Positions 20,699 to 27,131 of a stretch of DNA of 64,000 bases are shown here, piece by piece; positions within the stretch are counted from its first letter, which is position 1; the number at the start of each line of letters is the position of its first letter. Position numbers and translations under genes: made by a program. This DNA is from Planctomycetota bacterium (GTDB taxonomy: Bacteria; Planctomycetota; Phycisphaerae; Phycisphaerales; Phycisphaeraceae), in the NCBI GenBank assembly GCA_024279275.1, contig JAJRRS010000136.1, positions 1-64,000 of the forward strand. Reading direction: 5' to 3'. The notes beneath the pieces were generated by a model. It saw nothing but the letters and a program-made list of their open reading frames with translations, made no database searches and was not told the DNA's origin.

Positions 20699-21391
20699 AT
20701 GAGATTGCGAAATGTGATTGCGAGTTTTGCGGTGGCTATGACGGCCTCGGCGGCGATGGCTCAGGCGCCGTACTACGTCCGTGGCGACTTCAACGGCTGG
20801 GCGGGGACGGCTGACCTGATGGTCGATCAGGGCGGCGGGCTGTTCACCTACACGGTGACCGGGCTGACCCCTGGCACGTCCTACGAGATGAAGGCCACGA
20901 CTGATGACTGGTCCTTCACCGGTCCCGGCAGCAACGCCAGGATCCCTGCGGATGCCAACGGCGAGATCAACCTGAACTTCTTCGAGAACACGACTTGGGC
21001 TGACGGCTGGTTGCCTGATTCCAAGCAGCGTCTGGGCTGGGATGATCCCGGCACGTTTGACTGGGAAGTCGCTGGTGCGATGAACGGCTGGCCTGCGGCT
21101 GGCACTTTGCTGATGACTGATATGGGTAATGGGTATCATGTGGGCGACTTCGCGTTGCTCGCGGGTAACTACGACTTCAAGTTCCATCAGCAGGGTTCCT
21201 GGGATCACTCGATGGGTGACGACTCGGGCAACGCTGCGGCCAACAACAACATCACGGTCGCCAACGACGGCGATATCTGGCGGTTCGAGATCGACCTGCC
21301 CAACGGCCGATGGAACGCCAGCCTCGTCCCCGAACCTGCCAGCCTGGCGCTGATGGGCCTGGGTGGTCTGGCGATGCTTCGTCGTCGATAA
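20699..21391 (+). CDS. PEP-CTERM exported protein with two FNGW/MNGW modules
   Basis: A 230-residue exported protein. The signal peptide (MRLRNVIASFAVAMTASAAMAQ) is followed by two similar modules, starting YYVRGDFNGW (about 22) and WEVAGAMNGW (about 122), each with a later strand pair. This pattern resembles the E-set/CBM48-type beta-sandwich that binds starch-like glucans, but that is an inference. The C-terminus (VPEPASLALMGLGGLAMLRRR) is a PEP-CTERM sorting signal: a PEP motif, a hydrophobic helix and an Arg tail, recognised by exosortase. It is a single gene with its own strong terminator. Confidence 0.88.
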   Translation: MRLRNVIASFAVAMTASAAMAQAPYYVRGDFNGWAGTADLMVDQGGGLFTYTVTGLTPGTSYEMKATTDDWSFTGPGSNARIPADANGEINLNFFENTTWADGWLPDSKQRLGWDDPGTFDWEVAGAMNGWPAAGTLLMTDMGNGYHVGDFALLAGNYDFKFHQQGSWDHSMGDDSGNAAANNNITVANDGDIWRFEIDLPNGRWNASLVPEPASLALMGLGGLAMLRRR

Positions 21392-24976: not shown

Positions 24977-25354
24977 ATGCCTGCCCCTGATGATCGACGA
25001 TACCTGGAGAGCCACGAGTGGCATAAGCCCGAGGGGGACCTGGTGGTGATCGGGATCAGCCGGTTTGCGGTGGAGGAGTTGACGGACATTACTTATCTGG
25101 AAGTCACGGCCCAGGGGGCGATTGGTAAGGGCGATCCGTTGGGGGAGATCGAGTCGGTGAAGGCGACCAGTGAGCTGTACTGCGGGATATCGGGGGAGGT
25201 GGTTGAGGTGAATCAGGCGGTGGTGGATGATCCGTCGCTGATTAACCGGGACTGCTATGGGGAGGCGTGGATTATTAAGATTCGGCCAAGCGTCGCGGGG
25301 GAGTTGGAGGGGCTGATGTCGGCTGAGGATTATGTGAAGCAGGCGGGGCGTTAG
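24977..25354 (+). CDS. gcvH: Glycine cleavage system H protein
   Basis: A 125-residue lipoyl carrier. The lipoyl-lysine sits in GEIESVKATSELY, the usual ESVKA-type motif. YLESHEWHKPEGDLVVIGIS at the N-terminus and GEAWIIKIRP near the C-terminus are standard. It carries the aminomethyl group between the P and T proteins of the glycine cleavage system. No gcvT or gcvP is beside it. It is flanked by ATTTATGATT-type repeats, so it seems to be transcribed alone. Confidence 0.95.
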   Translation: MPAPDDRRYLESHEWHKPEGDLVVIGISRFAVEELTDITYLEVTAQGAIGKGDPLGEIESVKATSELYCGISGEVVEVNQAVVDDPSLINRDCYGEAWIIKIRPSVAGELEGLMSAEDYVKQAGR

Positions 25355-25566: not shown

Positions 25567-26499
25567 ATGATTACGGACGTGCATACGCGGGTATGGGATA
25601 ATGCGGATCAGTTGGGTCGTGCGGAGGAGACGCTTCGGCGTCGGCCGAGCAAGCCTTGGCAGCGGCCGGACGCCTGCCCGGATGCGCATCATGAGGCGAT
25701 GGTGCCGGTGCGCAGCGCGCTGATCCTGGGTTTTGATAGCGACTATCTTGGGGCTTGCATTTCGCACGAGCAGGTGGCGAGCTATGTGTGCAAAGACCCG
25801 GCGAAGTATCTGGGGGTGGCGGGGATCGACCCGACACGTGGGGATGCGGTGAAGAGCCTGGAGCGTGCGCGTGAGCTTGGGCTGGTCGCGGTGACGGTAA
25901 GCCCGGCGGCGCAGGCGTGCCATCCTTGTGATACGCGGGCGATGGAGTTGTATGAGGCTTGCCAGGCGATGCATGTGCCGGTGATGTTTGAGTCGGCGAC
26001 GTTGCTTGCGCGGGACGCGAAGCTGGAGTTTGCGCAGCCGTACTTGTTGGACGAGGTGGCGCGGACGTTTCCTGAACTGAAGATTGTGATTTCATCGCTG
26101 GGTGATCCGTGGGTGCATCAGTGCCTGGCGTTGATCGACAAGCACCCGACGGTGTATGCGGATTTGTCTGATTTATCGACGCGGCCTTGGCAGTTGTATA
26201 ATGCCTTGATCCTGGCGCATCAGCAGAACGCGACGGGGCGGATATTATTTGGGAGCAACTACCCGTTCTGCGATCCGGAGAAGGCGATCGTTTCGATTTA
26301 TTCGATTAATACGTTTACTCAGGGGACGCCTTTGCCGAGCATTCCGCGGGAGCAGTTGCGTTCGATCATAGAGCGGGACACGCTGGCGTGTTTGGGGCTG
26401 CGTGAACCGCGGGGGGAGGACACGTCGGGCGATACGTCCGAGCACGAGACGATGAAGATTCCCTCGGCCCACTCGTTCAAGGACGCGGACTCGGCATGA
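25567..26499 (+). CDS. Amidohydrolase-2-like protein with altered active-site positions
   Basis: A 310-residue TIM-barrel protein of the amidohydrolase-2 (PF04909) type. The layout is normal (start MITDVHTRVWD, PVMFESA, ELKIVISSLGDPW, RILFGSNYPF), but key positions differ. The usual DxHxH opening is DVHTR, so the second His is Arg. The His usual in PVxxHxG is Glu (VMFESA). The usual AHLGG reads SSLGD. The usual GSDYP Asp is Asn (GSNYP). These positions bind metal or catalyse in known members, so it may be non-catalytic or have changed chemistry. Its stop overlaps the next gene by four bases, implying coupling to a lipoprotein. Confidence 0.75.
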   Translation: MITDVHTRVWDNADQLGRAEETLRRRPSKPWQRPDACPDAHHEAMVPVRSALILGFDSDYLGACISHEQVASYVCKDPAKYLGVAGIDPTRGDAVKSLERARELGLVAVTVSPAAQACHPCDTRAMELYEACQAMHVPVMFESATLLARDAKLEFAQPYLLDEVARTFPELKIVISSLGDPWVHQCLALIDKHPTVYADLSDLSTRPWQLYNALILAHQQNATGRILFGSNYPFCDPEKAIVSIYSINTFTQGTPLPSIPREQLRSIIERDTLACLGLREPRGEDTSGDTSEHETMKIPSAHSFKDADSA

Positions 26500-27131
26500 C
26501 GCCAAATTTAATTGCACATCGGGCATGGAAGCTGTGGACCCTGGCTGTATTTTCGGTCGTGGTGTTTGGGTGCGCGGCGGGGAGCGATCCGAACGACGGG
26601 AACCTGACCATTCAACGCCGGGCTGATCCTGATGATATTTCGGCTGGGGGATTTGATCGTGGGATATATAGTTTTGATGGTCCGAGCGTGTTGACGGTGT
26701 TGCTGACGGAGGGGCCAGCGGATCATCCGAATCGTGCGTTGATCGTACGGATGTTCTGGAAGCCTAAGGCCGCATCGACCCCGCTGGATGAGACGGCGAC
26801 CAACGCGACGGTGCAGTACATCGTGTTTAGTGATGGTGATGATGCGGGCGTGTCCAACACACCGCAGAGGCAAGTAGGTATCTATTCAGGTGGCGGGTTT
26901 TTATTCCCCGAGACCGAGCCGGGGGGCGCGGTGCTGACGGCGAATCTGTGGCAGGCGACGCTGAGCCTGGCGGATAAGAGCGAGGGTTTTGAGGATGTGC
27001 TTGGGCCATCGATATTGCGGGGGCGATTTAATGCGCAGCGGGATGATGAGGGGATGATCGATGCGGTACGTCGTGTGAATATTGCGGTGAGCGAGGCGTT
27101 GGGGGTGCCGAGGTTTGTGCGGGGGGATTAG
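26496..27131 (+). CDS. Putative lipoprotein of unknown function
   Basis: A 211-residue protein with an N-terminal lipobox (LWTLAVFSVVVFGCAAG), so it is probably a lipoprotein. The mature part has strands (ALIVRMFWKP, ATVQYIVFSDGDD, QVGIYSGGGFLFP) and a C-terminal helix. I do not recognise the family. The ATG overlaps the TGA of the amidohydrolase-like gene (ATGA), so the two are co-translated and may act together. It is followed by the AGCS symporter after about 90 bases. Confidence 0.7.
   Translation: MTPNLIAHRAWKLWTLAVFSVVVFGCAAGSDPNDGNLTIQRRADPDDISAGGFDRGIYSFDGPSVLTVLLTEGPADHPNRALIVRMFWKPKAASTPLDETATNATVQYIVFSDGDDAGVSNTPQRQVGIYSGGGFLFPETEPGGAVLTANLWQATLSLADKSEGFEDVLGPSILRGRFNAQRDDEGMIDAVRRVNIAVSEALGVPRFVRGD

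Follow-up and report, generated by a model that had tools for sequence, protein, structure and literature searches.

The barrel gene at this locus raises the question of whether an amidohydrolase-like protein with an altered metal site is a pseudoenzyme or an enzyme with a changed mechanism, and how it is related to the lipoprotein gene to which it is coupled. In the window, which is the whole 64,000-nucleotide stretch of DNA that was analysed, the gene occupies positions 25567–26499 on the + strand and encodes a 310-residue PF04909-type TIM-barrel protein without most of the metal site (P0001, a putative pseudo-amidohydrolase, referred to here as AH). Based on the comparisons below, AH is probably a maintained pseudoenzyme, that is, a cytosolic Amidohydro_2 barrel that descended from metal-dependent enzymes and lost both metal binding and the catalytic Asp. 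The original prediction of a pseudoenzyme or a changed mechanism, with coupling to a lipoprotein, survived the tests, and the pseudoenzyme is clearly its better half.

Barrel fold and altered metal site of AH

AH matches PF04909 (Amidohydro_2) over nearly its full length (8.2e-24; 85.3 bits against a curated cut-off of 26.4). AlphaFold, given 75 orthologs, predicts a TIM barrel for AH with high confidence (pLDDT 92.7), and PF04909 barrels are the best solved matches of this model, with 3irs as the top PDB match (E 5e-14). This agrees with the barrel scaffold that had seemed normal from the sequence. Additionally, the protein opens right at strand β1, and therefore no signal peptide is apparent.

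Metal-dependent enzymes of the amidohydrolase superfamily are recognized by HxH or ExH at β1, His at β5, His at β6, and Asp at β8, and AH lacks this signature. Its metal site consists of H6, R8, E142, S177, and N231, compared with the canonical H, H, H, H, and D. After β1, the metal-binding HxH is replaced by H6-T7-R8 (25582–25590), in which H6 is retained and Arg takes the place of the second His. In the alignments, E142 (25990–25992) lies at the β5 His position, S177 (26095–26097) at the β6 His position, and N231 (26257–26259) at the position of the β8 catalytic and metal-binding Asp, all encoded on the + strand. These residues account for every altered motif originally claimed, namely DVHTR (H6 kept, R8), VMFES (E142), SSLGD (S177), and GSNYP (N231). 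Moreover, positions 142, 177, and 231 align with the β5 His, β6 His, and β8 Asp of both 3ij6 and LigW (4icm), and the alignment to these solved PF04909 members gives no sign of ligands elsewhere.

Five congeneric copies carry HRESN or HREAN as their metal site, and the dN/dS within the genus is 0.05–0.18; the altered site is therefore no sequencing artefact. The sole other PF04909 gene of the same genome, located on another contig, has the intact motifs DIHTH, THIGD, AHMGG, and GTD, which shows that this genome does contain a recognizable normal site.

Recurrent loss of the metal site in Phycisphaerae

Of 61 relatives, 50 carry an ortholog or close homolog of AH, as do 254 of the 297 Phycisphaerae genomes sampled, while the gene is missing from most of family f2 and from a few other genomes. 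In the public genome collection, the named AH records come from Phycisphaeraceae and Phycisphaerae; most of these genomes are metagenome-assembled, and some, including ZRK32, ZRK34, and syqfu, are complete. A contig labelled Gammaproteobacteria bacterium J025 (L170; RFGN01000559.1) also encodes a copy with 78% identity to AH, but this contig is probably mis-binned.

The ligand positions of these proteins are highly varied. Among 124 aligned AH proteins, position 231 is Gly in 59, Asp in 45, Asn in 14, and another residue in the others, and fourteen different residues occur at position 142. In the 65 AH proteins paired with the lipoprotein, none of the five ligands is kept in 20, one in 16, two in eight, three in three, four in 14, and all five in four; position 231 is not Asp in 44 of them, and Gly, Asn, Ser, Ala, His, Arg, or Val stands there in most. 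The expectation that relatives would share the changes of AH was partly borne out: HRES followed by N or G recurs in the genus and in neighbouring genera, but the paired orthologs just mentioned with four or five ligands do not conform. Because relatives vary between this pattern and intact sites, the change is lineage-specific and recurrent and is no fixed property of the locus. The outgroup paralogs (L051–L057, L047, L048, and L155) are all HHHHD.

A separate change is common to a large group of AH relatives in families f18, f20, f23, f24, and f26 (L139–L161), which retain HxH and the β5 His and have Gly for the β8 Asp in nearly all sampled members. The relatives without the lipoprotein, in f18, f20, f23, and f24, show this same combination of HxH, β5 His, and, in nearly all, β8 Gly.

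The tree was built from 105 AH proteins with the five ligand columns left out. Losses were counted as irreversible (Dollo) after branches below 95 bootstrap had been collapsed, with each polytomy counted once, and the resulting numbers are minima within the ingroup: six for H6, 14 for H8, 13 for H142, eight for H177, and 11 for D231. Regain of ligands, which the Dollo counts assume away, is possible in principle; undirected parsimony gave 6, 13, 16, 10, and 15 changes at the same positions. Intact and degenerate members stand side by side in the tree. For example, L088 (HHHHD) and L031 (HHYHS) are sisters with 100% support, and L106 (HHHHG) falls inside a clade with L099 and L125 (both HHHHD; support 99–100%). 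Collectively, these results indicate that the metal site of AH has eroded many separate times across Phycisphaerae.

Coupling to an unnamed lipoprotein

The stop codon of the barrel gene overlaps the start codon of the next gene in an ATGA (26496–26499, + strand). This gene (26496–27131, + strand) encodes a lipoprotein with the lipobox VFGC, whose Cys codon is at 26571–26573, so that both the overlap and the lipobox are real, as predicted. All 58 homologs have the lipobox Cys. The family has no Pfam or NCBIfam model, and no match was found for the lipoprotein in Pfam, NCBIfam, or the PDB sequences. Its model is confident (pLDDT 90.1) and shows a β-rich domain with a C-terminal helix. A Foldseek search of this model against the PDB returned nothing credible, as the best E value was 0.13 and the TM-scores of at most about 0.26 are noise. 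The lipoprotein is a candidate for a new fold and a new Pfam family. It occurs in 182 of the 297 class genomes, nearly always as a single copy, and no homolog was found outside Phycisphaerae in the phylum sample.

Of 124 sampled loci, 65 have the lipoprotein gene as the immediate downstream neighbour of AH, in the same orientation. An overlap between the two genes is seen in 39 of the 55 paired loci that could be measured, and in 19 it is exactly ATGA; start codons were picked by a simple rule that may be off in single cases. Thus, the proposal that orthologs share this neighbour holds as a conserved coupling but not as an obligatory one. An obligate pairing was ruled out: most f2 genomes have the lipoprotein but lack AH, and the two genes are unlinked in f9 and f19. 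In a set of loci from family f2 and from genus g21 of family f1 (L247–L258), the lipoprotein has no recognizable adjoining barrel gene, and it therefore has a role of its own. AH is predicted to be cytosolic and the lipoprotein to be exported; what links them is therefore more likely a common process or joint expression than a complex, and direct contact is unlikely.

Upstream of AH lies gcvH, which encodes the glycine cleavage H protein (24977–25354, + strand); it is the immediate upstream neighbour of AH in 20 of 29 loci of the same family (f1) and in no other family sampled. Downstream of the lipoprotein is a Na+:alanine/glycine symporter (PF01235; 27174–29021, + strand), which is the next gene after the lipoprotein in 14 of the 43 wide loci, all belonging to families f1 and f6. 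These two neighbours weakly hint at glycine/alanine metabolism and Na+-driven glycine/alanine uptake. Of the neighbours suggested by synteny grouping, the lipoprotein, gcvH, and the symporter alone withstood scrutiny; the large clusters from a first grouping were artefacts of antisense ORFs in GC-rich DNA. A few genes upstream, positions 20699–21391 encode a PEP-CTERM protein that carries a pullulanase X25/CBM-like domain.

Selection, alternative explanations, and known systems

To set the metal site against the rest of the protein, 28 near-intact orthologs (at least four ligands) were compared with 40 degenerate ones (at most one ligand). Only H6, H8, D231, and position 226 are at least 85% conserved in the former and below 55% in the latter, and the change at 226 is a trivial Leu to Ile/Val. 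As the groups were split on the ligand columns, the ligand difference arises by construction; what is informative is the lack of any further difference. About fifty positions are conserved in both groups, and the mean pairwise identity is 0.43 in the near-intact and 0.41 in the degenerate group. The ligand columns have entropy ranks of 135–244 of 280, in or near the variable half, and the adjacent D4, S230, and P233 are invariant. Degenerate members also keep open frames. AH is not decaying, since the dN/dS is low and non-ligand positions are conserved as in near-intact members; it is under purifying selection, and the metal site is no longer needed. Therefore, as in pseudoenzymes, canonical catalytic residues are lost relative to active homologs and selection persists despite the loss.

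The alternative that fares best, though we consider it unlikely, is a changed mechanism in which AH is a metal-free enzyme that works through conserved non-ligand residues such as D88, H119, Y211, and R261. D88 is fully conserved (1.0 in near-intact and 1.0 in degenerate ingroup members), and H119 is conserved at 0.93 and 0.80, respectively. As H119 is conserved in the ingroup but not in the outgroup, an ingroup-specific pocket may exist. The conserved polar residues D88, H119, W208, Y211, and S230 may line the pocket and might serve metal-free chemistry or form an unusual metal site, and a review of pseudoenzymes warns of catalytic residues that migrate (PMC10211241). However, a retained reaction should fix new residues at the ligand positions, whereas these vary freely between lineages. 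We rate metal-free catalysis below the pseudoenzyme because most lineages no longer have the β8 Asp and no new constellation has become established at the ligand positions.

A relocated or altered metal site is far less probable. Here, Arg–acid pairs or neighbouring residues would hold a different metal, or a salt bridge would replace the metal, as in HRES, EQRG, or RRAD. Of 29 clade-level degenerate patterns, nine pair Arg with Asp or Glu at former ligand positions, charge-swapped versions included, but degenerate members show no newly conserved cluster of His, Cys, or Asp. The excess of Arg–acid pairs, at p 0.0005 on all distinct patterns, fell to 0.08 (four positions) and 0.28 (five positions) once clades were collapsed, and a salt bridge in place of the metal was rejected. 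Finally, a functionless gene that is decaying towards loss is hardly credible: the absence of AH from most of f2 and a few other genomes shows that it can be lost, but the open frames and the occurrence of AH in 254 of the 297 genomes of the class argue against decay, and for this genus the dN/dS of 0.05–0.18 and the conserved fold and non-ligand residues refute it.

We therefore return to the maintained pseudoenzyme. In the proposed explanation, the ancestor would have combined metal-dependent turnover with a second, non-catalytic task, such as metabolite binding or scaffolding. This second task would serve a process shared with the co-translated lipoprotein of the envelope and would be what selection keeps. 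Once freed from catalysis, the metal-site residues might drift independently in each lineage, while the fold, the rest of the pocket, and the surface would stay fixed. AH would then have no catalysis left, and its retained task would be ligand binding or scaffolding. A second function of this kind, probably ligand binding or scaffolding, was probably already present in the active ancestor. More tentatively, the two genes might form a Phycisphaerae module in which the non-catalytic barrel function predates and survives the site losses and is coupled to a lipoprotein fold absent from the PDB, as a new sensing or envelope-maintenance pair.

Among known systems, the PF04909 enzymes ACMSD, gamma-resorcylate decarboxylase, LigW, and 2-pyrone-4,6-dicarboxylate lactonase share a homologous barrel and the motif positions with AH. 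Unlike in these enzymes, the second β1 His, the β5 ligand, the β6 His, and the β8 ligand are replaced in AH. LigI is a metal-independent lactonase of the amidohydrolase superfamily that keeps the β8 Asp as general base along with specific Arg and His residues. It resembles AH as a superfamily barrel without divalent metal; in contrast, AH has Asn and many orthologs have Gly at the β8 position, so AH does not share the LigI-type arrangement. LigI-type chemistry uses the very Asp that is replaced in most paired AH orthologs, which also argues against metal-free catalysis in AH.

The nearest solved relative by both sequence and fold is 3irs/3k4w (BB4693 of Bordetella bronchiseptica, uncharacterised), at about 20% identity; a literature search for a paper on it found none. 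Similar to AH, it lacks the β5 His, with Met/Thr around the position, and has Ala for the β8 Asp; the difference lies in the β6 His, which 3irs retains.

Pseudoenzymes are a known kind of protein, usually studied singly, and other cases of repeated inactivation are on record. Our search for literature on a class-wide, repeatedly inactivated bacterial amidohydrolase coupled to an unnamed lipoprotein found none, with thin coverage of subscription journals. For many Phycisphaerae copies, the label "amidohydrolase" probably misleads, and the AH locus exposes a widespread unnamed lipoprotein family. The evolutionary pattern of AH is the same as that of the Ssd1/Dis3L2 pseudonucleases, in which at least four independent losses of the active site left a second function in place (PMC8097288). 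Ssd1/Dis3L2 belong to the eukaryotic RNase II family, whereas AH is a bacterial TIM barrel of a metal-dependent kind, for which more losses are inferred and whose operon partner is conserved. In AH, inactivation has been repeated naturally about a dozen times within a single, vertically kept bacterial gene; both intact and dead sisters are extant, and the partner is conserved. As intact, dead, and closely related copies can be swapped, what a pseudoenzyme retains after catalysis is directly testable in this system.
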